DNA of 64,000 nt from Aurantiochytrium sp. KH105 (taxonomy: Eukaryota; Sar; Bigyra; Thraustochytrida; Thraustochytriidae): NCBI GenBank assembly GCA_003116975.1, contig BGKB01000132.1, positions 1 through 64,000 of the forward strand, given 5' to 3'. A program made the position numbers and the translations under genes. Positions 34,319 through 55,106 of this stretch are shown one piece after another; positions within the stretch are counted from its first letter, which is position 1; every line of letters starts with the position of its first letter. The notes below the pieces were generated by a model, which ran no database searches, was not told the origin of the DNA, and saw only the letters and a list, made by a program, of their open reading frames with translations.

Positions 34319-37300
34319 TTAGATGAGTTCGCTCGAGGCGGCCGCGGCTGCGAGCGCGTGGCGCAGGTCGCCGAGGCGAGCGGCGGCGAGGGCGCGGTGC
34401 GCTCGGAGCACGTCTCGCGCGGTGCGGTCCTGGAAAGCCGCCAGCAGAACCACGAACACGAGGTAGAGCGTAAGGGTGCCGAGGACCAGCGCGAGGACCA
34501 GACGCAGGAAACGTGCCGCGCGCTCGAGGGCAGAGGGCTTCGACGGAGGCGCGGGGGGCTCCTGCTCGGTCTTGGACTTCTTCGCTGGCTTGGCCGTGCG
34601 GGACTGGCGGTTCTTGGCCAAAAGGTAGTCCCTGAGCATCTTGATCTCGTGCGTGTAGGCGTCCGTGTGGCCGCTCTTGACTCCGCTCAGAATGAAGCCC
34701 TTGATGGGAAAAGTAGGAGGTGGCTTGCCTTCGTAATAGCGGACCTCGCCCGAAATGCAGACGCGCGATTCGGTCGGGCTCACGTAAGCAACAGCGAACT
34801 GTACATGCACGTAAAAACGCTCACCGTAGGGGACCCCTGGGGTCTCCCCGGTGCTCGTAAAGATGAAGCCGCCCGGATCCATCCGCACAATGCGCTGCAC
34901 CTCGGTGCAGACACTGGACTTGGTAAGACTCGACGCCGGAATCGTAAACGTAAGCGTGCGCGTGGGATAGGTTACGGAATCGACGATCTTGCCAGCTTGC
35001 ATGGCGTGTATTGACTCCTGACGGGCCAGTGGCGGTCTGGACTTCGAACCTTCACCTCGAGAAGCCTCCTTTGCGACCTCGGGAGACGCGCTCGTCTTTG
35101 TTGAGGGCGCCTTCGATGAACCTTGGTTGCCTGTTTTACCTGCCTGATTGTTGTGACCTCGGTTGCGATCATTGGCAGAACTCGGCGCTGCAGAGACTGG
35201 GTCGCTCGGACTGCGCGCGATCTCGTCGCCCGGCATGAGTTGGGCTTCACTTTTGGCTTTGTTCCTGCCTGCCGTGTCGTCGTCATTATCGTTATCCACG
35301 CGAATCGTTTGCTCGGATCTTGTTGTGACGCTGAGCGGTCGGCGAGAGGCTGCGGTCGACGATGCCTTTTCCTTGAACATGCCTCGAATGGAGCCTTCCG
35401 GGAGATCCGTCAGCGAGGATTCGCTGTCGTTTGTGTCCTTTTCGGATTCTACGTTTGCCGAAGCGTTTGAAGCCTTGCCTACAGATGCTGTTTCATGTGC
35501 GGGGTTTGCGAGGCGCTTGCTCCCTGCTTCTGCGTCCGTTTCCTCTTGCTCCGCTGTATTCTTGCCGTCCGTAGCGTTGCCTTGGCCGTCACCGCCACCC
35601 CCTGCATCTTGCGATTCATCGTCAGGAAGTTTCCAAGGGCCGACCACGACATTGGTGTTTTTCCGTTCCTTGGCGAATTGCATGGCAAACTTGGAGTTGG
35701 TTCCAAGAAGGGCCAAAGCAATTTGTTGCACGGTACCTGGGACGGTCTCATCCACGTAAAGGTTAGTGAGCGGCGCAGGAATCTCGATGGGCTTAGGTAC
35801 ATCATCTGCGTTTGTTGGAACAACTGCTTTCAAGGCGTCTTCAATATCGATGTTGGCGTCCTGTGCCGGGTCAACGATCGACAAGGATTCATCGATGTCA
35901 AAGTGGTCTTCGTCATGAAGGAGCGGACGCATTTTGGCGTAGCAGTAAATCTGGCCGCACTTGATTTTGATGTTTCGCTTAAAGGCTGCCTGCTTTCGAA
36001 GAACGACAAAATGAGCGTCCTGGTGGGTCGGGTCAATGGGAGGTTGCGGCTTGAGATCATCCACGGAGGGAATCTGGGACTTGTCGTCTTCGTCACCGAC
36101 TGTCGACCCGCCCGAAGTAGGGAGAGAGTCCTGTGTTTTTGACGGGGCAAGTCGACGTTGCAAACCAACGCTGTCAAGATCAACCTCGCTCCGGTCAAGG
36201 TCGACCTCGGTTTCGACACGAGTAATGACGCCGTCCTCATCATCGTCGTCGAATGCACTGTCATCGTCATCGGCATCGGAATCAGAGTCAGAATCGAGGT
36301 CCTCGGTGCGACGAATGTACTGAAGATTCATTTTCCCGCGACCGCACACGACGCTGGTCAAAAGGTCTTTTCTCCGTACAAGGCGGAACTCAAGAATTGT
36401 GTACTTTGCAACATCATCAGGAATGGGAAGGTTGACAGCTCCAGCCTTGACGACGGGGCGGCCGTCTTTGGGCCAGAGAAAGCGCGGAGAGCGCTTGCGC
36501 GCAATGACGCCCGTGTCATTTTCCATGTCCCGTCGCTTGCCCTTGGATGCCTCGGCGCGCCGTTTGGCAAGGTGCGCGCTACGTTTTGGAGAGTGGGCGA
36601 GGACTTCGATCCAAGTGACTGTTCCCGGCGCAACGTCGGTCACGTCCCGGATTTCGAGCGAAGTGATGCACGTTTGCCAACGCTCGACAGGGACAGAGAA
36701 TTCTTGTGTCTGTGCTGCATTGCGCGTGTTCTGATCGGGCGAGGCAGCTTTTGCTTTGCGTGACACCGTACTGGGCTCATGTGGCTCTTGTTGGGCGTCA
36801 AGAAGAGCACGCTGCGCATAAATCTCCTTTTCCGGACGGCGGTCCACGTGCTGGTACTGCATAACGCTACGCGGAAGGGTGCTTGGGGAGCGGTCCCGGT
36901 GATGGTCCGAGTCGAGTCTAGAGTGAGCTTCTGGGTCCACCGTATCTTGCGGGGAGTGCACTTCCTCTCGCTTCGGACGGCATTCGTCGTGAACAGTGGC
37001 GTCGGGCGTGTCGACTATATTAGTGATGACCTGGAACTCGATCTGCAGCTCCCCGCCACGGACCTCGTCTGGTTCGCGAGCCGTCGCAGGCGGGAGCAAC
37101 GGGTGCCAGGACAGCCATCCGGGTGCGTCTTGAGCAAAAATAGGCGGAATGCGGTCGGCGCTGACACGGCACTGCTTGAGAATGCGTTTGGTGGGGACGC
37201 AAACAACGCCGAGGGGAAAGGACTCGCCAAGCTCACGAAAGTCGAAGACCTTGATCCAGACCTCGTCGTGACGCGGGAGCGTGTAGTCGAAGTAAAATGT

Positions 37301-38125
37301 AAAGGATTCATCCCACCTCGGCTCGCTGGTTTTTTCTTCGACAGAAGTATTTGCAGTGATGCTGCCAAGGGTGACGCTGGCGAGCGGGGCGATGCGCTTG
37401 GGCTCCCAACGGCCGAGAATGCGGTTGTGCCGGGTGTAACGGAGACCGCGGCCCGCTACAAGGCGGACAACGAGCTTGTACTTGGCAAAGGCGCCGACGT
37501 TAAAGGTATAGAGCGCGCCCATGCTATACTTTTGCACGCCGGTCTGGTACCAGTCGAGCTGTTTGCGGCGGCGCCATTCGGCGAGACTAGGCGCCATGCT
37601 GTGAATGGCGCTATTCAGCAGCGGCTTGGTGTGGTCGATGCGCAGAATGATGCGTCGGTACAGGAGGTGGCGCAAGACATTTTTCGCGTCTTCTGGATCC
37701 GTACAGACCGAGTTGGACACCAGCCATGAGACGGCGTCAACGCCGCGGAAGCAGTCCTCGTAGGCGTGGATGAGTCTCCGGTGAACCGAGAGATGGAGAC
37801 GCGCACGCAGCAGAACAGCGAGGCGGTCGAGTTCCCGACGGTCGACGTCAAAGTTCAAAAGAGCATGCTTGCGCTTTTCGTCAAGGGCACGGATGATGTG
37901 CAGGTCGTTCGCCGTGAGATCTCGGATCGAGTTCTTCATGGCCTCGTCCTTGCCGAGTTTCCGGTCCGAACGCGACCACAAGCGGTGGTGCCTCACGGAC
38001 CCTGCCAGCGACCCTTCGTCTTCGTGGTAGTGTTCCTCGTCGCTCGAGAGCCGTGACTCGCCTCGCCCCGTTCGCGCCGCGGCGTCGTCGCCGCTGCCCG
38101 TCAAGTTCAGGAAAGACCGCATCAT
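34319..38125 (-). CDS. DEP-C2-VASt membrane protein, candidate contact-site lipid transporter
   Basis: 1268 residues from the first of two adjacent ATGs that lie in frame (38125 and 38122); the longer frame begins with GTG. Order: DEP domain (about 98-175, CFRGVDAVSWLVSNSV); C2-like domain (about 212-320, VRLVAGRGL, EPRWDESFTFYF, VWIKVFDF); a second divergent C2-like stretch (about 480-600); an Asp/Ser linker; a VASt-like lipid-binding domain in two pieces (about 780-835, LYVDETVPGTVQQIALALLG; and about 1048-1172, GERFYVHVQFAVAY and ISGEVRYYEGKPP) separated by some 215 disordered residues; a C-terminal membrane segment (about 1206-1230, LRLVLALVLGTLTLYLVFVV). The VASt-plus-C-terminal-anchor plan is that of GRAMD1/Lam/VAD1 sterol transfer proteins at ER contact sites, but with DEP and C2 in place of GRAM. 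Function is inferred from this plan. Confidence 0.8.
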   Translation of the reverse strand: MMRSFLNLTGSGDDAAARTGRGESRLSSDEEHYHEDEGSLAGSVRHHRLWSRSDRKLGKDEAMKNSIRDLTANDLHIIRALDEKRKHALLNFDVDRRELDRLAVLLRARLHLSVHRRLIHAYEDCFRGVDAVSWLVSNSVCTDPEDAKNVLRHLLYRRIILRIDHTKPLLNSAIHSMAPSLAEWRRRKQLDWYQTGVQKYSMGALYTFNVGAFAKYKLVVRLVAGRGLRYTRHNRILGRWEPKRIAPLASVTLGSITANTSVEEKTSEPRWDESFTFYFDYTLPRHDEVWIKVFDFRELGESFPLGVVCVPTKRILKQCRVSADRIPPIFAQDAPGWLSWHPLLPPATAREPDEVRGGELQIEFQVITNIVDTPDATVHDECRPKREEVHSPQDTVDPEAHSRLDSDHHRDRSPSTLPRSVMQYQHVDRRPEKEIYAQRALLDAQQEPHEPSTVSRKAKAASPDQNTRNAAQTQEFSVPVERWQTCITSLEIRDVTDVAPGTVTWIEVLAHSPKRSAHLAKRRAEASKGKRRDMENDTGVIARKRSPRFLWPKDGRPVVKAGAVNLPIPDDVAKYTILEFRLVRRKDLLTSVVCGRGKMNLQYIRRTEDLDSDSDSDADDDDSAFDDDDEDGVITRVETEVDLDRSEVDLDSVGLQRRLAPSKTQDSLPTSGGSTVGDEDDKSQIPSVDDLKPQPPIDPTHQDAHFVVLRKQAAFKRNIKIKCGQIYCYAKMRPLLHDEDHFDIDESLSIVDPAQDANIDIEDALKAVVPTNADDVPKPIEIPAPLTNLYVDETVPGTVQQIALALLGTNSKFAMQFAKERKNTNVVVGPWKLPDDESQDAGGGGDGQGNATDGKNTAEQEETDAEAGSKRLANPAHETASVGKASNASANVESEKDTNDSESSLTDLPEGSIRGMFKEKASSTAASRRPLSVTTRSEQTIRVDNDNDDDTAGRNKAKSEAQLMPGDEIARSPSDPVSAAPSSANDRNRGHNNQAGKTGNQGSSKAPSTKTSASPEVAKEASRGEGSKSRPPLARQESIHAMQAGKIVDSVTYPTRTLTFTIPASSLTKSSVCTEVQRIVRMDPGGFIFTSTGETPGVPYGERFYVHVQFAVAYVSPTESRVCISGEVRYYEGKPPPTFPIKGFILSGVKSGHTDAYTHEIKMLRDYLLAKNRQSRTAKPAKKSKTEQEPPAPPSKPSALERAARFLRLVLALVLGTLTLYLVFVVLLAAFQDRTARDVLRAHRALAAARLGDLRHALAAAAASSELI

Positions 38126-38943
38126 GCCGGCCTCCGGCGGCACACGGCGAGGCTCGCGCGTGGCCGCGCCTCGCGCCTCGCGCCGTGCCTTGCCTGCCCG
38201 CCGCCTCGCCCGCGGCTCCTGCAGCTCCTGCGCCGGGTCTCGTCTGGCTTGCCTCGCCTCGCTTGGCGTTCTGGTCTGCTCGCGTTCGGGTCTTCAGCTC
38301 CGCGCTCAGGCTCACTCACGACGCGCTCCCTCCCTCCCTCCCTCCGCTGCGCCCTCGCGCCTGCGGCTCTGCGCGCCTGCGGCTCTGTACGTATGCGTTC
38401 TGCGCGTTTACGTTCTGCGCGTCTATGTTCTGCGCGTGTGCGCGACTGCTCTGCGAGAGCACGTGCGCAGACGTGACGGCGTTTGGGCCTCGGAATGGAT
38501 GGATGGATGCGATTTTGATTGCCGCTGACGCTCGGCCGCATCGAGCTGGACGCAGAGGCAGACCGCCGTGCCTCGACGCAGGCACACCGCGGCACGGCTT
38601 GCTTGCTTGCCTTCCTCTTCTTTCGTCAGCAGCAGGCTGACTCTGCCGAGCTGCCGGGGTCGAGGAGCGAGGCGTCAGTCACGACGAGGGAGTACGAGCC
38701 GCAGCGGGAAAGGCGGATCGGGAGTACTACGTATACTAGCGCGTTCTATAAACTAATTAACCGTAAGCCTGTTGTGCAGTGCAAACGAAGTGATGTCGAG
38801 GCGAGCGACCGCCGGTAGGAAGATTGACTTTGGGCGCTAAGCGGTAAGGAAGGTATAAAGAGCAACAATTTTCTTGAATGGGATGTAGAAGAATACCGAC
38901 AAAGGTGTAGAACGTGCCATTGTCCTGCGCGTGGAATGGCGGA
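38126..38943. other. Intergenic gap with very GC/CT-rich leader
   Basis: 818 bp: the 5' flank of the DEP-C2-VASt gene, with CTCCCTCCCTCCCTCCC at 38330-38346 and repeated TTCTGCGCGT units at 38398-38440, then the 3' flank of the TIR gene. Overlapping frames here are compositional. Confidence 0.5.
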
Positions 38944-40287
38944 TTACGGACAGGCACTTTTGATCCGTTTGACCAAATACTTGAGGTTAGACTTTTGCTG
39001 ATCGGGAGTGGAGAAATCCACAATGATAGGATCCCCAAGATCAAAATTCAGGGGCCCCTGCCAAGGCCACTTTTCTCCCCCAGGAAGCATCGAGGGCTCG
39101 AGAACAACCGGAATAACCGTCTTACCCCTTTTGATGGCGTATTTAAACTCTTTGGCGGAGTAGGAACCTTCAGAGGAACTTGTCCCATCGGTGCTCGCGC
39201 TTGCATCGCTTTGCTCAGTGGCCACGCTGTCGCTGCTTCCTGTGCTGCAAGGACTCCGAGGAAGTCGCTCAGAACGCATGAGTTTCAGCATGTACCGCTC
39301 GGTGACGAAAACGATGAATACGTGCGACGCATCGATACCAGCTGCCATTTCCTTGGACAACGAATGCTCAAGTTCGTCGCCATCAAACCAGGTCTTCACC
39401 TTTTTCTTCTTGAGTCGATCGTTGATTTTTCGAACAAGTTCGTGCGTTTCCTGGTTCATCCCCCAATTGTGTGAAAGGAAGGCATGGAATACTTTGCCTG
39501 AGGACGAGTCTTGACGCAGCATCGTCGTACGAAAATACGATTTTCGAATCGAGGAGCCGCTATGAGACCGTCCATTTGGACTGGGATGAAAGTGACCTAG
39601 GAAACTTTGAATTTGATCCGACCCCATCCCAAACCTCGCGAGGTCTTCCCTGCCGAGCTCACGGCAGTTCTCCGTCGTGCGCACGCCGTGTTCATATAGA
39701 CAGACGATTGCACTCCGTGGCAGGGTCGATCCGAACGGTGCAGCGAGATCTGTTTCTTGGCCATTCACGAAGGTGAGAAAGCTGACAACCTCTTTGCACC
39801 CGTGGTGTTTGGCAAGCTTGAGAGCGTCAAAACCATTCGCTTCGCGCAAATTTGCATCCGCGCCGCTGGCCCAGCAAACTTTGACACACTTGGCCAAGTC
39901 CTCTGCTTTGTGGTTTTCCTCGAGAGGGTCACACGAAGCAAGCATGAGAGCCGAGTAGCCATTTTTGGTGCGCATAGAAAGGTCTGCGTTATTCGTCTCG
40001 AGGAGGGCTACGATCTCGTGCTGACCTGACCGTGCGGCGAGCATGATTGCGGTGAAGCCGTCCCTAGACTGGATGTTCGTCTTGGCGTGATTGCGAATGA
40101 GAAAGTTCGCAGCTTGGGGGTGTGCGTACCGACAGGCGTACATGAGCGCAGTCCACCCGTCTTCGTCTTGCGCATTGAGAGTGAGAGGGTCATGGGCAAA
40201 GATGCTCTCGATCTCCTGTAGCTCGACGCTTCGCCCGCGGTCCAGCGCGCGCATCAGGGGGGTCTGGGCTTGGTCTGGGCTCGACAT
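38944..40287 (-). CDS. Ankyrin / SAM-like / TIR domain protein
   Basis: 447 residues, no intron. About 8-175 is four to five ankyrin repeats (DEDGWTALMYACRYAHPQAA, SRDGFTAIMLAARSGQHEIV, TKNGYSALMLAS, NGFDALKLAKHHGC). About 185-235 is SAM-like (CLYEHGVRTTENCRELGREDL). About 264-446 is a TIR domain: VFHAFLSHNWG, VKTWFDGDEL, ASHVFIVFVTERY, then a Ser/Thr-rich insert (about 340-373), then YSAKEFKYAIKRGKTVIPV. Glu380 sits where TIR NADases have their catalytic Glu, before the strand VIPVVLEP. The protein could be an NAD+-consuming TIR like SARM1 (ARM-SAM-SAM-TIR), with ankyrin as sensor, or a TIR adaptor. No signal peptide or membrane segment, so cytosolic. Confidence 0.88.
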   Translation of the reverse strand: MSSPDQAQTPLMRALDRGRSVELQEIESIFAHDPLTLNAQDEDGWTALMYACRYAHPQAANFLIRNHAKTNIQSRDGFTAIMLAARSGQHEIVALLETNNADLSMRTKNGYSALMLASCDPLEENHKAEDLAKCVKVCWASGADANLREANGFDALKLAKHHGCKEVVSFLTFVNGQETDLAAPFGSTLPRSAIVCLYEHGVRTTENCRELGREDLARFGMGSDQIQSFLGHFHPSPNGRSHSGSSIRKSYFRTTMLRQDSSSGKVFHAFLSHNWGMNQETHELVRKINDRLKKKKVKTWFDGDELEHSLSKEMAAGIDASHVFIVFVTERYMLKLMRSERLPRSPCSTGSSDSVATEQSDASASTDGTSSSEGSYSAKEFKYAIKRGKTVIPVVLEPSMLPGGEKWPWQGPLNFDLGDPIIVDFSTPDQQKSNLKYLVKRIKSACP

Positions 40288-40838
40288 GCTGCCGCTTTTC
40301 TCTCTTTGATCGAGCTTACGTGATGCTTACTCGCTTACAGTGCGCAGGCTTCTTACCGCCGCACTTCAGGCCTGGCACGTTGAGGGTTGCTTGATCCAGA
40401 CTTTCTGCTCCTCCGTTCTGCTCAAGCCAGACGCCCCACCCGACGGCGACCCGTGCTCGCGGTCGCGACGCCTCCTCAGAAAGAAATTTGGCCAGCTGCA
40501 GCGAGCGACATCACGTGCACACCGGTTCCAGACGATCTGGAACGGTCAGGTGTTCTTAGGCCTGTCTTGCAAAAAAAGGAAAAAAAACACGGGGACGAGG
40601 ACGAAGACAAAGACATGTCTCTTGTTTCTCCCTCCTCAAGAGTAAAGAGCAGAAAGATCAACAAGAGCAAGAAGATCACTTTTAATGTTCACTTTCGGCT
40701 CTCTCCTCTCATGACATACACATTTATACTATGGCTAACTGTACATAACGAATCTGTATTGTTTGTACTGGTCCCGATCTTTCCCTACGCGCGATGCGCA
40801 CGGCTATCAATAAGTTGATCTTTCATTTGGTCATTCAC
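40288..40838. other. Intergenic gap, no gene seen
   Basis: 551 bp upstream of the TIR gene and downstream of the sulfotransferase gene (both minus strand). It has A-rich runs near 40570-40600 (GACGAGGACGAAGACAAAGAC). Nothing identified. Confidence 0.5.
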
Positions 40839-48530: not shown

Positions 48531-51500
48531 TCACTCCGTTGATGATAAATGTGAAAGAATACGCGTCACTGCATCACGAAGCGGGCCAGCCGGAAGAGCA
48601 TCGAGTACGGCTTCCAGCGGACCTCTGCATGGTAGCAAGAAGCTCTGACGTCGTGCACGCGAACCTTGATCCGCATGTTCAAACCTTGTAAGAATGCCCA
48701 AAAGGTCCACCACATGCGTTCGTGCAGCGATACGACATTGCGCGTCCTCCGAAACGCCCCCATTTCTCATTGATGCTCGCAGAACCGAACGTAATAACAT
48801 CACAAAACGTCTGTGCTGAAGCATCCGACGCTGCGCACGCGACGAGCGCGGAAGAGTCCCAGCGAGCATCGCAAGACACGCGCACGACTTCTCCAAAAGC
48901 ACGGCCAACTCGCCCACGATTGGCACCGAATGCTGCTCAAACTCGTTGTCGGCGCCATCTCCTATCATTTCTCCGGCTGCTTCATCGTGGCCACCTACTC
49001 CTACTCCTCCTCGCGGCCCGTCCGTCATCGGAGAGCCGTCCAATGCAAGTACAGCATCGATATCATTGACGCGATCGCCGCCGCTACCAGGCTTTCCGTC
49101 TCGCCCAGAGACCCATGCAGCCCACGGGCTGGTAGACATCTGCGTTGTGCTCGGTAATATGCCCACGGAATGCTCCAGCGCTAACGCCAAAATGGCTAAC
49201 AAAGCGCCGTCGTCCAGAGATTGCGATACTTTGTCGAGAATGGTCCCAGCCAGCTCGACGTCGCCAATGACTCGAAGCAGCGGGAAGACCAAGTCTACCA
49301 CTGCCTCGACCTGCTGCTCCTCGTGCTGAGATCGAAACTGTGTCGATATGAGCGCACGCGGCCTCCCAGTCTGCCGGAGCCTCACTTCTTCATCGCTTGT
49401 GATCGAGGCAACTACCATACGTCCAAAGTGCGCTGCGCGCTCTCCCATTGCGCACGGGGCCGAAAACAGCATGTCGGCATCTAAAAGCGAACCTCCCGCG
49501 TAAAGAATTGAAGACACCAACTTTGCACCCGCGAGAACCCGCGCATCTACCTCTCTTGGCGCCTTCATATCGTTGTCTGGAGCACGTGCCCCCTCGGCAG
49601 ACACAAACGTTTCATGCGGTGATTCTCTTGGTAGCTGACTTACATAGTCCGCAAGAAGACCTAGATCCATCATCACGCGGACGAGACTCGGCCGCTTGGA
49701 GACTGCAAAGCAGAGCAAGTTCACTACCAAATGCGGCACAGGAGCTTCCTCTTCCAATAGGCTTGCGGTCCGCGGCAGCACGCGGTTTGCGAGGAAATCT
49801 AGCACGTATTGGTCCACGGCCTGCAAAAGAGCCACACGCTCGTGAAAGGCCTCGTGAGAAGCATCTTTGCCGTACACAGCGTCTTCGAAGCGATAAAAAT
49901 CCAAATCACGATCGCTTTGCTCTCTCGCTATCCTTTCCTCGGCTACGTTGTGCGCACCAGCATTTTGCGTCGACTTGCACAAGACATCAATTGCGAGTCG
50001 AAGACACCATGTCCTCGTGTCTGATGATACACGGCGCGCCACGCTGGCTGCCCAGAGCGCTGGCAGGACGTCTTGACCCACGGCCAGTGCTACCTCTGGC
50101 ATGCGCAGCGCGTCGGCATTCTGGCTCAAACTCTCGGCGAGCATCAGAATGTGACGTTGATACTCCTCAAAGCCCTCCGTAATAATGTTTAGATTCACGC
50201 GAATCAAAGTGGACAGCGCTCGCAGCAAATCAGCGCTGCAGCACACGAACCCCGAGAGGGATCGACTTGCGCTGAGCTGAAACAAAACAGGCAAAGCCTC
50301 GCGTCCCAGCCCCTGCAATAGCCCGGCCTCGGGGGACGATGCAGTGACCGCCCGCCCCGACGCTGAAATCGGGGCAAGCTTTCCAGCGGCTTTGGTCACG
50401 GATGCGATCGCTGCATCGGCAACCATTGCCACTCTGTACACCAGCGCATGCAAGCACCTACGCATCATTAGCGTTCCATTAGTCCCACCTTCACGTGCAA
50501 TCAAATCCTCCACTCTCGTGGCCCCGCGCCGCGTGCTGTTCCCACCCGCCGCACCTCGTTCGGCCTCCCGTATTGACGGAGCGTCGCTCCCAGCACCCGC
50601 CCTCGGTAAATGCGATTTCGACGTCGACGCAGTTGACGACGAGGACAAAGACAATAATGCCTGCCGCAGACGCGCATGCATACGATCAAAAATCGGCACC
50701 AGCTTGTTGTCAAGCAGAAGGCGAAGCTCGCTGGGATAGTGCTGCAAAAACAGCGTCAGCGTCACACTCGCCTTGGAACGAACAACAAATGTCTGTCCAT
50801 GGCTCAGGAGCTGCACGAGAGCCCGCAGCACGCCTTCCTTCACCGCGCTGCGTCGTCCGAACAAGGCCTCTCGCGTTGTTCGTTCCGCGCCGAGTCGCGT
50901 TGCAGCTGGCATGCTGCGAATGGGAGACGGGGGCATTGGCGTGTGCAGCGCCTCCGTCGAAGAACCACTCGAGTGCAGCACGAGGTTCAAGATGTTCAAA
51001 AACGCCTGCTGTACGCGAGGCGATCCGTGCACGGCCTGCAGACCGCTCACCATAAATCCCCATGCATCATGTTCCGCCAGTCGAGGCAAAAGGCGTCTGT
51101 TCACACGCACGAGATGTGCCAGCGCCATGGCGCATGTCGATCGCAAATGCTCCGCCTTCTCGCGCAATGTTGCATGCAACAAACGGGAGGCAACCTCGGC
51201 TGTCGCGAAACGCAAACTCGTGGCGTTCGCACCTTGAGAAACCTGCTCTGCAGCCGGCGCCAGGCTCAAAACGTTTTCGAATGTCTTGGCCGCGTAGAAT
51301 CGAATCGTCTCGTCGTCCGCGTGAAGACAGCTCAAAAGTTGCTTGAGAGCCGCGCCCGAGATCTTCCACTGATCGTTGATACTACTTGTTCCTGGCATGC
51401 CACCTCCTTCGCCGCCCTGCCAAGGGCTCGATGATCCGCTTACCACAGGATTAGGACCCCTCGAGGGTGAAGGCGATGGTGGCAGCGACGGCGGCGGCGG

Positions 51501-54500
51501 CAGCGGCGGCGCGTTAGCGGTAATGTAAAACAGAAGCTCTCCAAGTCCTGCCGAACCGTATCGACGAATGGGAAGCACATCCTCCTCTTGTGAAAAAGAA
51601 GTAAAGGCCTCCAAGAGACCTTCGTCGTTGAGTCGTGGCGAGATAAAGGTAGCGTGACGAATCAACACCGCTAGTACGATGGTCACTCGTACGCGCAGTT
51701 TGCGGATTTGTGACTTGAGCGATGGTTTCTTTGCAGAGTTCGAAATCGACGACATGGAGAGCGCGGCAGAGGTTGCATAGTATGATGAATCAACAGCACT
51801 TAATCCATGTGTTCCTGGCCCCACTGACGCGGCCATCGTCGGCGCGGCCGTTGAGCCTACAGGGCTCACAAGTCGCGCCATGTCGGATGACAATGCGCTC
51901 GAGGCATGCTGCGATCCGGTTAGCTCTGACATCTGGGCCAATGCGGCGGTTGGCGGTGAGGGAGGCGTCATGGGTCTTCTCAATGCCCCTCCCATCATTC
52001 CGCGAGTTTGCCCGCTCACGTCACCGCGTGGTGTACGCGGCGATCGTGGTGGCGATCGCATGCCCGCTCCTCCTGCGCCTTCGCCGCCGAGAAGGATGCT
52101 CTCCGGCTTTGTCCCAAGCCTGATGAGCAGAGCCACCAAGGACGAGCTAACAATCACATTGGCCAGACGTGGCGTCGTGCACAGGGAATACAGGTACCCC
52201 AGCGTTTGTGTCACTTGCATCGCAGAATTGTCAGGTCCCGATGAGAGTGCACGAAACACTTGAGAGAAAAACTGCTCAAGCTCTGGGCCATCTAGCCGAG
52301 CCGCATCGTGCGCGGTCAGATTCGGAAACGGGAGCATCCGCGGATTGTACTTGAGCACCGGGAGGGCCGTTGTGATTGGATTTCCAACAATGGGTCGCAC
52401 CACATAGTCATGAGGTTCCATGAGTAAATTTTGAACCTCCCCAGCTCCCCGAAATTCCTGCTCCGCCAGTTCAGGGACGAGAACAAGCCTCTGCTGTTCG
52501 AGCAGCTCATAGGTGCGGTTCAATCCGGCTTCGTTGGCCTTGCGTTGCAGATCGGCATCAACCTCGAACGATGGCTCCGCAGCAGATTCGGGGATACCCT
52601 CGGCACCAAGCACAATCCGCTTGCTCTGAGGCGAAACCAGCGCGGAAGAAGGCGAGATCGTGAGCGAAGAAGTTGACGATCGCGGTGAGACAGCTGGTGG
52701 AGCAAGCAATGGCGAAGGTGATCCGGGTGGTGTATTGGGGCTGAATTCAGAAAGGTTGTCCTCGTCTGAATTGCTTTGATCCTGGAGTTCTGGCGTCTTG
52801 CACTTTTGGTCTTTTGGTCCATTTGAATGTTGGCCTCGTGCCTCGTTTTGATCTGAATACCGTGTCTTGTTTTGATCCTCTTCTTCAACTTGTTCGTTTT
52901 GATTTCGCCCAAAAGACCTTACCGCCACTCCTTCGGCTTTCCTCATCTTGGCGTCAGAGCGAGTGGGATCCGCAGACGCATTATCATCATCTCTACTTGC
53001 CTCCTCGCCACTACTGGCATCGTCAACGCTATCGTCCTTGCTGTCGTCACCTCCCTTGTCGTCTTCTTCAGAATCCAAAACGAGCGCGAGCACGGCTGCT
53101 GCTGCCTCTTGAACGCTCGGTCGCTTTGCTGATGCTTGCACGGTGCCGTCTACTTTGGCGGATGGAGACCCAGAACTCTGGCGGCTCGGCTCGGCGATTG
53201 CTGTGCGAACTGATAAATTAGCCGGCGTTGCCAACTGTACAGAACCTGGGTTCCCTTCCGGGCCGGTCGAATCTGCGTTCTCTTTTGCGCCAGCCGAATC
53301 TGTAGTTTCGTGCGTTACGCTTCGCGGCCGTTCCAGTACCGCAACCACCGACGTCTCGCCTCCCCGCGTCTCGTCTTGTTCCGCTTTTGGAGCTTTCTCT
53401 CCACGAAGGGAGGAAAGATGTTCAAATTCAACCATTTCGTCGTCGAGACCTTCTTTGACGGGCTTATTTTCTCTTGCGCTGCCAGCGTGCTTTGCATCAG
53501 GAGCCTTGCCTCGCTGAAGCTTGCCATCCTTGGGCATCGGCTGCGGAGCTCTCGTGTCCTCTTTGCTATGGTTCCCGTCTGCATGCTCTGCAGTCATTTC
53601 GCGCGCACGTGTGTCTGACGGTGTGTTCGTTTGAGAGTCTGATTGCTCGTATACATCGTTAGCTTCGGCGGCAGACACAGCGAGCAGTTTCTCACTCGGT
53701 CGACCTTGGGGTGGCTCGGATTCTAAAACGTTGTTCGTGGCTCGCGGTGCTTCCTTCGCTTCGTCCTCGCGAGTTGCCTGCAAGCGCAATGCACCTACGC
53801 CATCTGAGCGATTTCCTTGGTCTTCATCTTCGTCCTCGTCGCCCTCAATTGGCGTGTCGGGTCTGTATTCAAAATTGAGAACAGTGTCGGTATTTTCAAG
53901 CTGAAGATCTCGAAGGTGTGCGGTCGGGCCCACGAGCGCTCGTTCCTTGTTTGTTTGTGGGATTGGTGAGATGGGCCCGCGACCTTTCGGAGTAGATGCA
54001 TTCGGCCCTTCTTCTTCTGCGTTGAAAGATCCAATGGCACATGATTCTTGAGCATCGGTCTCGCCAACGGGGATAAGTGGCGAGTTCGCCGGAATGGAGC
54101 GACGCACGTACGAGAGATTTGTTGAGTCGAGGCTTTCCCGCAAAAGATTCCGCCGCGCGTTCGTTGACATGCGCAGGGAGTCTCCTTCAGGCATGCCACT
54201 TTGTGTGCTCTCGTTCGCGTCGTCCATGTCCGGGTCCGAATCCTCTTCAATGCAAGACGGGATATACTCTCGCGTCTCCATATAACGCTGATATGCAGTA
54301 TTGGCAGGAATGCGCGAAAAGGCTGGCATCGGCATTCCGTCCCAAAATTCATGCGTGAGCAATGCTGACCACGTTATTCGCTTGGCTGGGTCTTTACGCA
54401 AGAGTGAGCGCAAGAGGTTTTTAAACGGAACACTAAGCTCATCGCCTGCTGGGAGCTCCAGAGGAGAGGTCTGGGCAAGGTGTACGAGCTCTGCGAAGCT

Positions 54501-55106
54501 GCGCGAGACAAACGGCGGCGTTCCCATAACAAGCTCGTAGAGAACCACGCCAAGCGACCAGAGATCAGAGGCCACCGACGGCACGCCCTCGTCCGTGAAG
54601 AGCTCGGGTGCCATGTAGCATGGAGTGCCTCGACGCTTGGACGTATGGGCCATTTTGGACAGCTGATCAAGCGTCATGGAGAGCGCAAAGTCACTCAGCT
54701 TGAGCACGCCGTACTCGTTAAGCAAGACGTTCGAGGGTTTCAAATCGCAGTGAAGAACTCCGTTCGAGTGAAGGTACAGCAGACCATGCACCAAATCGGC
54801 GCCGAAAACACGGACGGCGCTCTCTGGTAGCTGACCATCGTGTCTGAGCAACTCGAGCAAACTCCCCCCCGTGGCAAATTCCAAGATGAGCCAAATATGG
54901 TGGCGCGTCTCGTACCACTTGAAGAACCGCAGACAATTTGGGTGGTTGAGTTTGTGCTGCACACGGACCTCTTGCAGCACCTTTTCGATCTTCGACTTGT
55001 CCACCGATTTAATCGCCACGTACTGGACCGTCTGTTTCTCCCTGCCCTTGTACACCAAGCTGTGCTGACCGCGGCCGATCTCCTCGTATATGTGATACCT
55101 GTCCAT
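48531..55106 (-). CDS. RUNKEL/ULK4-type protein kinase with long HEAT/ARM tail
   Basis: 2191 residues from ATG in GCCATGGACAGG; the frame runs on upstream with a GTG start only. Kinase domain 1-260: GRGQHSLVYKG (Gly-rich loop), VAIK with Lys33, HCDLKPSNVLL (Asp121, Lys123, Asn126), LSDFALS (Asp139; DFG is DFA here), GTPCYMAPEL and SDLWSLGVVLYE. The opening MDRYHIYEEIGRG and the KSVDKSKIEKVLQEVR block are typical of plant RUNKEL and animal ULK4. About 290-900 is Ser/Asp/Glu-rich disorder. About 960-2191 is helical HEAT/ARM repeats with Pro-rich inserts. Plant RUNKEL acts in cytokinesis through the phragmoplast, and ULK4 in microtubule and ciliary assembly, so a microtubule role is likely. Active-site residues are intact, unlike animal ULK4. 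Confidence 0.93.
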   Translation of the reverse strand: MDRYHIYEEIGRGQHSLVYKGREKQTVQYVAIKSVDKSKIEKVLQEVRVQHKLNHPNCLRFFKWYETRHHIWLILEFATGGSLLELLRHDGQLPESAVRVFGADLVHGLLYLHSNGVLHCDLKPSNVLLNEYGVLKLSDFALSMTLDQLSKMAHTSKRRGTPCYMAPELFTDEGVPSVASDLWSLGVVLYELVMGTPPFVSRSFAELVHLAQTSPLELPAGDELSVPFKNLLRSLLRKDPAKRITWSALLTHEFWDGMPMPAFSRIPANTAYQRYMETREYIPSCIEEDSDPDMDDANESTQSGMPEGDSLRMSTNARRNLLRESLDSTNLSYVRRSIPANSPLIPVGETDAQESCAIGSFNAEEEGPNASTPKGRGPISPIPQTNKERALVGPTAHLRDLQLENTDTVLNFEYRPDTPIEGDEDEDEDQGNRSDGVGALRLQATREDEAKEAPRATNNVLESEPPQGRPSEKLLAVSAAEANDVYEQSDSQTNTPSDTRAREMTAEHADGNHSKEDTRAPQPMPKDGKLQRGKAPDAKHAGSARENKPVKEGLDDEMVEFEHLSSLRGEKAPKAEQDETRGGETSVVAVLERPRSVTHETTDSAGAKENADSTGPEGNPGSVQLATPANLSVRTAIAEPSRQSSGSPSAKVDGTVQASAKRPSVQEAAAAVLALVLDSEEDDKGGDDSKDDSVDDASSGEEASRDDDNASADPTRSDAKMRKAEGVAVRSFGRNQNEQVEEEDQNKTRYSDQNEARGQHSNGPKDQKCKTPELQDQSNSDEDNLSEFSPNTPPGSPSPLLAPPAVSPRSSTSSLTISPSSALVSPQSKRIVLGAEGIPESAAEPSFEVDADLQRKANEAGLNRTYELLEQQRLVLVPELAEQEFRGAGEVQNLLMEPHDYVVRPIVGNPITTALPVLKYNPRMLPFPNLTAHDAARLDGPELEQFFSQVFRALSSGPDNSAMQVTQTLGYLYSLCTTPRLANVIVSSSLVALLIRLGTKPESILLGGEGAGGAGMRSPPRSPRTPRGDVSGQTRGMMGGALRRPMTPPSPPTAALAQMSELTGSQHASSALSSDMARLVSPVGSTAAPTMAASVGPGTHGLSAVDSSYYATSAALSMSSISNSAKKPSLKSQIRKLRVRVTIVLAVLIRHATFISPRLNDEGLLEAFTSFSQEEDVLPIRRYGSAGLGELLFYITANAPPLPPPPSLPPSPSPSRGPNPVVSGSSSPWQGGEGGGMPGTSSINDQWKISGAALKQLLSCLHADDETIRFYAAKTFENVLSLAPAAEQVSQGANATSLRFATAEVASRLLHATLREKAEHLRSTCAMALAHLVRVNRRLLPRLAEHDAWGFMVSGLQAVHGSPRVQQAFLNILNLVLHSSGSSTEALHTPMPPSPIRSMPAATRLGAERTTREALFGRRSAVKEGVLRALVQLLSHGQTFVVRSKASVTLTLFLQHYPSELRLLLDNKLVPIFDRMHARLRQALLSLSSSSTASTSKSHLPRAGAGSDAPSIREAERGAAGGNSTRRGATRVEDLIAREGGTNGTLMMRRCLHALVYRVAMVADAAIASVTKAAGKLAPISASGRAVTASSPEAGLLQGLGREALPVLFQLSASRSLSGFVCCSADLLRALSTLIRVNLNIITEGFEEYQRHILMLAESLSQNADALRMPEVALAVGQDVLPALWAASVARRVSSDTRTWCLRLAIDVLCKSTQNAGAHNVAEERIAREQSDRDLDFYRFEDAVYGKDASHEAFHERVALLQAVDQYVLDFLANRVLPRTASLLEEEAPVPHLVVNLLCFAVSKRPSLVRVMMDLGLLADYVSQLPRESPHETFVSAEGARAPDNDMKAPREVDARVLAGAKLVSSILYAGGSLLDADMLFSAPCAMGERAAHFGRMVVASITSDEEVRLRQTGRPRALISTQFRSQHEEQQVEAVVDLVFPLLRVIGDVELAGTILDKVSQSLDDGALLAILALALEHSVGILPSTTQMSTSPWAAWVSGRDGKPGSGGDRVNDIDAVLALDGSPMTDGPRGGVGVGGHDEAAGEMIGDGADNEFEQHSVPIVGELAVLLEKSCACLAMLAGTLPRSSRAQRRMLQHRRFVMLLRSVLRASMRNGGVSEDAQCRIAARTHVVDLLGILTRFEHADQGSRARRQSFLLPCRGPLEAVLDALPAGPLRDAVTRILSHLSSTE

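Follow-up and report, generated by a model that had tools for sequence, protein, structure and literature searches.

A 447-codon frame in the window, as the whole analysed stretch of 64,000 nucleotides from Aurantiochytrium sp. KH105 is called here, is, to judge from its sequence, a real gene for an ankyrin-SAM-TIR protein, and in sequence alignment its Glu380 falls on a residue of an NADase active site that has been examined by mutation. The larger point concerns the genome as a whole, which has hardly any NB-ARC domains and holds a very large set of TIR domains on ankyrin-SAM and Roc-COR frames. The likeliest reading of the window gene, held with moderate confidence, is that of an intracellular receptor-type NADase, whose function would lie in immunity or cell death.

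Domain composition of the window protein

The original prediction placed ankyrin repeats, a SAM-like block and a TIR domain in one 447-codon frame, and this composition is confirmed, with Ank_2 and TIR_2 recognised by Pfam and the SAM block by family profiles (Table 1). The TIR_2 match (PF13676; residues 270-402, E 9.6e-11) reaches 42.7 bits against a curated cut-off of 28, which assigns the domain to the TIR superfamily, while Pfam finds neither NB-ARC nor NACHT in the window protein, which is thus not of the TIR-NLR type. A pattern search locates ankyrin units that start at residues 44, 77 and 110; the last of them is irregular.

Table 1 Location of the ankyrin-SAM-TIR gene and its features in the window
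Feature	Position	Strand	Basis
ANK-SAM-TIR protein, 447 aa	38944..40287	minus	ATG at 40287, TAA ending at 38944; single open frame
Ankyrin-repeat region, residues 1-175	39763..40287	minus	Pfam Ank_2, E 6.5e-20
SAM domain region, residues 170-236	39580..39780	minus	family profile against PDB, leave-out profile, Pfam on relatives
TIR domain, residues 264-446	38950..39498	minus	Pfam TIR_2, alignment A3, profile against PDB
Ser-rich insertion, residues 341-372	39172..39267	minus	alignment A3, comparison of three close copies
Glu380, candidate catalytic glutamate	39148..39150	minus	aligned to Cat1 E74
Ser272-His273	39469..39474	minus	aligned to Cat1 active-site S7-H8
Asp302 of WFD motif	39382..39384	minus	aligned to Cat1 active-site D33
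Ser377	39157..39159	minus	Cys at the same column in 23 of 26 TIRs

The window protein alone has no SAM match in Pfam, and the identity of the block comes from its relatives. In an alignment of the window protein with ten relatives, a close copy among them, SAM_1 and SAM_2 each match four of the 11 members, with a best E of 0.0089; the SAM_1 cut-off of 23 is barely reached by the relative C234, and only together with its frame neighbours (23.1, as against 22.6 alone). A profile of the block built from ten members, window included (A2), matches the ARAP2 SAM domain in the PDB at E 2.7e-6 and yields 13 matches up to E 10, 11 of which are taken to be SAM-domain proteins, the exceptions being YME1 and NLRP2. 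When the window row is left out, the resulting profile recovers window residues 190-223 with 25.9 bits; this is the one SAM stretch counted in the protein, whose TIR domain starts at residue 264. By this family evidence the SAM-like block is a SAM domain.

A candidate NADase site around Glu380

Glu380 had been proposed to sit like the catalytic glutamate of TIR NADases, and a sequence profile agrees, its column aligning with Cat1 E74. The profile was built from 26 TIRs of this genome, drawn from ANK-SAM-TIR, kinase-TIR and Roc-COR-TIR frames and including those of the window gene and its two close copies. Its best match in the PDB is Cat1 (E 5.7e-9), followed by bacterial TIRs; AbTIR is found at E 3.4e-5 and the plant TIRs Roq1, RPV1 and RUN1 at 6e-4 to 0.05, Roq1 at 6e-4. 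In the profile alignment, with letters counted by script, Cat1 S7, H8, D33 and E74 fall on Ser272, His273, Asp302 and Glu380. The His273 and Asp302 columns are invariant (His and Asp in 26/26 TIRs), the Glu380 column has Glu in 25/26, and the Ser272 column has Ser in 15/26 and Thr in 9/26. Cat1 is the sole solved structure against which the glutamate is placed, because the other printed alignments, those to bacterial TIRs and AbTIR, stop short of it. A control with a profile of the C-terminal TIR half (A5; 15 rows, window row excluded) failed, as its PDB matches were all chains of the 26S proteasome (best E 0.0096) and none was a TIR; this counts against the NADase reading.

According to the accessible text of PMC12162218, S7, H8, D33 and E74 line the NADase site of Cat1, and the alanine mutants N10A, D33A, S68A, E74A, K121A and Y122A are all defective in growth arrest; in vitro, D33A shows a partial and Y122A a full loss of activity, the test shown there being of these two and not of E74A. 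Several points speak against a NADase site in the window protein: Cat1 S68 falls on Gly374, N10 on Gln279 (N9 and N10 aligning, after a gap, with Asn278 and Gln279), the Cys found at one column in most TIRs is Ser377 here, and a Ser-rich insertion lies beside the site. Cat1 K121 and Y122 are outside the aligned stretch. Glu380 presumably also corresponds to the catalytic glutamate of SARM1.

In the receptor-type NADase reading, the ankyrin repeats would bind or release a partner, the SAM domain may help several copies to assemble, as SAM domains do, and assembly would join the TIR domains into an NADase whose putative site, positioned by alignment, comprises Glu380, His273, Ser272 and Asp302. 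The protein would act as part of the large TIR set, probably in defence against invaders such as viruses or in regulated cell death. Of the ankyrin-sensing, SAM-assembled cell-death or immune-like enzyme originally proposed, three points have stood: the order of the domains, the identity of the SAM and the placing of Glu380 at a mutation-tested NADase position. The ankyrin sensing, the assembly, the enzyme activity and the immune or cell-death role keep the standing of a model.

Alternative roles for the TIR domain

One ANK-SAM-TIR homologous pair (L055, C187:92700-94260, and L059, C4:415540-415990) carries Ala at the Glu position in an open frame. The TIR of this pair has a dN/dS of 0.28 on ten changes, next to 0.29 and 0.39 in two Glu-bearing pairs, C4 being one of two members with the Glu-to-Ala change and chosen for it. 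The Ala-bearing pair shows no sign of lost constraint, and since it is about as constrained as the Glu-bearing pairs, some TIRs of the family may work without NADase activity. This lends support to a somewhat unlikely alternative, in which the TIR domain is a protein-protein signalling platform, as in MyD88, that recruits the kinase-TIR and other TIR proteins to an assembly scaffold, Glu380 being structural. In the TIR tree, the kinase-TIR at C229 falls inside a ten-member group otherwise made up of TIRs from ANK-SAM-TIR frames (support 0.98), which would mean that one TIR type serves different partners and so also favours a scaffold; the same tree has several weak branches, and the placing of the window's own group with the Roc-COR-TIRs has a support of only 0.75. 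Moreover, not every TIR keeps the glutamate or hydrolyses NAD+, and association is still needed, according to passages of PMC9153377. However, 25 of the 26 TIRs have all three of the Cat1-site residues Glu, His and Asp, which scaffolding alone would not demand.

It is improbable that the TIR enzyme, instead of draining NAD+, makes a signalling compound such as an isomer of cyclic ADP-ribose, so that the outcome is signalling and not death. The residue three positions before the glutamate is Cys in 23 of the 26 TIRs, presumably the same as a Cys that serves 2',3'-cNMP synthesis in a plant TIR, which would suit such a product, but the window gene and its two close copies have Ser (Ser377) there. 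In its favour, plant and bacterial TIRs are described as often producing such isomers (in the accessible text of PMC10022894), and a Cys near the catalytic glutamate of a plant TIR as important for 2',3'-cNMP synthesis (in that of PMC9153377).

Duplicate copies and selective constraint

The genome looks largely duplicated; domain searches return many pairs with equal scores, and C132, from 15127 onwards, runs collinear with the C8 segment from 195 to 274 kb (C8:195000-274368), the blocks being 86-95% identical (93.7 to 94.1% for the four longest) and the two segments either uncollapsed haplotypes or two subgenomes. The homologue of the window gene on C8 (C8:248552) keeps the whole frame intact at 90% identity, with dN 0.050, dS 0.116 and dN/dS 0.43, and for this reason the window frame is not a chance one. 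The ratio is above that of most long frames in the table compiled for frames of at least 200 aa and coverage of at least 60%; four frames are higher still (0.61 to 5.5) and are taken as spurious overlapping frames. Divided by parts, the two intact copies give 0.24 for the TIR domain, 0.58 for the ankyrin region and 0.59 for SAM plus linker, on 23 to 35 changes each. Purifying selection is strongest in the TIR domain, as would be expected if the output is conserved while the input changes.

That the gene belongs to a multigene family in decay and is no longer under selection for any role is very improbable. A third close copy (C8:77590) is frameshifted and matches at C41 and C100 are interrupted by stop codons, but both the window copy and the C8 homologue have kept their frames and are constrained, above all in the TIR domain.

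The frameshifted copy lies in a segmental duplicate (36853-40510 of the window, corresponding to C8:75520-79142) that also takes in part of the neighbouring gene. This neighbour (34319-38125) has VASt and C2 domains, with a DEP match below threshold; further along, at 48531-55106, a long frame encodes a protein kinase that has HEAT repeats of ULK4-like type.

The Ser-rich insertion, which like Ser377 is absent from the original prediction, comprises 32 residues directly ahead of the Glu380-bearing stretch; it is confined to three close copies and has no counterpart in the other 23 TIRs of alignment A3. Over these 96 bases the window copy and C8:248552 are identical, and the third copy does not differ either; overall, 83 of 1341 coding bases differ between the window copy and C8:248552. 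Gene conversion, constraint and an in-frame intron are possible explanations: an intron could account for the insertion by its length, and gene conversion or constraint fits the identical bases equally well.

TIR domains across the genome and the frames that carry them

The window protein is one of many TIR proteins in this genome. All 150 scored stretches exceed the Pfam cut-off for TIR_2, which makes at least 150 (108 of the 258 first-look candidates being unscored), with both homologous copies counted, so that a haploid genome has fewer, by our estimate perhaps half. TIR proteins in such numbers are known only from plants and some invertebrates. NB-ARC gave two weak matches across the genome. 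With the window protein as query, at least 137 matching stretches were obtained (94 of 528 candidates scored), many of them matching by ankyrin only.

TIR domains occur in the architectures ANK-SAM-TIR, Roc-COR-TIR and kinase-TIR, and also after an unassigned N-terminal region. For at least 67 of the 150 TIR stretches, the 4 kb upstream contain a same-strand match to Roc, counted among the best 150 of 381 Roc candidates listed. Pfam recognises Roc, COR-A and TIR_2 in L026 (C137:190875), and COR-A and TIR_2 in L010 (C16:579190); the nine other Roc-COR-TIR rows of the alignment are labelled by likeness to L010 and not by Pfam scan. A single Roc-COR-TIR query gave weak matches to TIR and SEFIR domains (best 0.001), together with chance matches (antibody, hedgehog, others). 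The kinase-TIR, L056 (C229:9000-10900), joins a protein kinase, a cysteine-rich stretch that is RING-like by eye (no Pfam match) and a TIR in one frame. L009 and L011 (C8:194982 and C132:99039) have a TIR in a frame of 639 aa whose N-terminal part resembles helical repeats by eye; in L009 this part has no Pfam match, and the two are possible armadillo-TIR proteins.

Stretches of the ANK-SAM-TIR type are found near the starts of several contigs (C34, C68, C90, C28, C41 and C343). Those that begin no more than 12 kb from the start of a contig make up 11 of 23 family stretches in a hand-picked list (5.8% expected), 11 of 33 distinct loci at 51% identity or more in a recount among the matches listed, and 22 of the 150 TIR_2 stretches; both limits, 12 kb and 51%, were set once the list had been seen, and the counts cover contig starts only. 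A subtelomeric location is not claimed, as neither of two telomere patterns occurs in the assembly and repeated families also break assemblies.

The large TIR gene set suggests home-grown receptors of an immune type. Tentatively, it may represent an NLR-free immune repertoire, in which ANK-SAM-TIR and Roc-COR-TIR proteins replace NLRs, TIR NADases are a shared, swappable output, and members without the glutamate act as regulators or decoys. If true, the frames that carry TIR domains in numbers like those of plants or some invertebrates would here be ankyrin-SAM and Roc-COR and not NLR. The 150 or more TIR stretches and the naturally occurring Glu-to-Ala pair would make the genome well suited to sorting enzymatic TIRs from others.

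Comparison with known systems

Ankyrin-TIR proteins are already in print for oomycetes, some of which share uncharacterised proteins of this kind (PMC9153377), and in composition the window gene is a variation on them; ankyrin and TIR are common to both, no SAM domain is named in the sentence that mentions them, and the comparison is by description only. For the ankyrin-SAM-TIR architecture itself, no description was found in the accessible text of the open-access papers returned by searches for it. Six clades of the TIR atlas are eukaryote-only and uncharacterised, as stated in passages of PMC13142454. Searches with short exact patterns for relatives gave five matches in IMG/VR and three in the GTDB genome set, none of them confirmed. 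The TIR half of the window protein matches the PADLOC profiles of two candidate defence families, PDC-S66 (1.3e-6) and bSEFIR (0.0097), in each case over part of the profile only; both are bacterial, and any TIR-like domain may give such a match.

With fungal NLRs, as described in the accessible text of PMC4986451, the family shares many shuffled architectures with ankyrin repeats and, in some relatives (L006, L008, L058), near-identical repeats (best pair 0.93-0.98 nucleotide identity). It differs in that fungal NLRs have a nucleotide-binding domain, which is absent from the window protein, and that the window gene's own repeats have diverged (best pair 0.46 nucleotide and 0.27 amino-acid identity), so that the high internal repeat conservation of the fungal proteins is not seen in it. 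The plant TIRs Roq1, RPV1 and RUN1 are matched by the genome's TIR profile, and the window protein differs from them in having no NB-ARC. Cat1 (PDB 9mud), a CRISPR-associated TIR protein, gives the best structural match, with S7, H8, D33 and E74 aligned; it is prokaryotic, however, and has a CARF sensor and filaments built by cyclic oligoadenylate, according to the accessible text of PMC12162218.

In layout, the window protein resembles SARM1/TIR-1, with helical repeats followed by SAM and by a C-terminal TIR with the catalytic glutamate (SARM1 layout as given in part of PMC8635717). It departs from the SARM1 family in two features: the repeats are armadillo in SARM1 and ankyrin here, and SARM1 has a tandem SAM where the window protein has one. 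A TIR profile excluding the window row (A6) matches the SARM1 orthologue tir-1 at E 0.056, and tir-1 is absent among the matches of the 26-TIR profile, so that the TIR profiles of this genome are closer to Cat1, bacterial and plant TIRs (5.7e-9 to 0.05) than to tir-1. The likeness to SARM1 is thus best regarded as an analogy, shared descent as a unit being unsupported; if the receptor-type NADase reading is true, a SARM1-like layout of repeat sensor, SAM and TIR NADase would have been assembled from other parts in a eukaryotic microbe.
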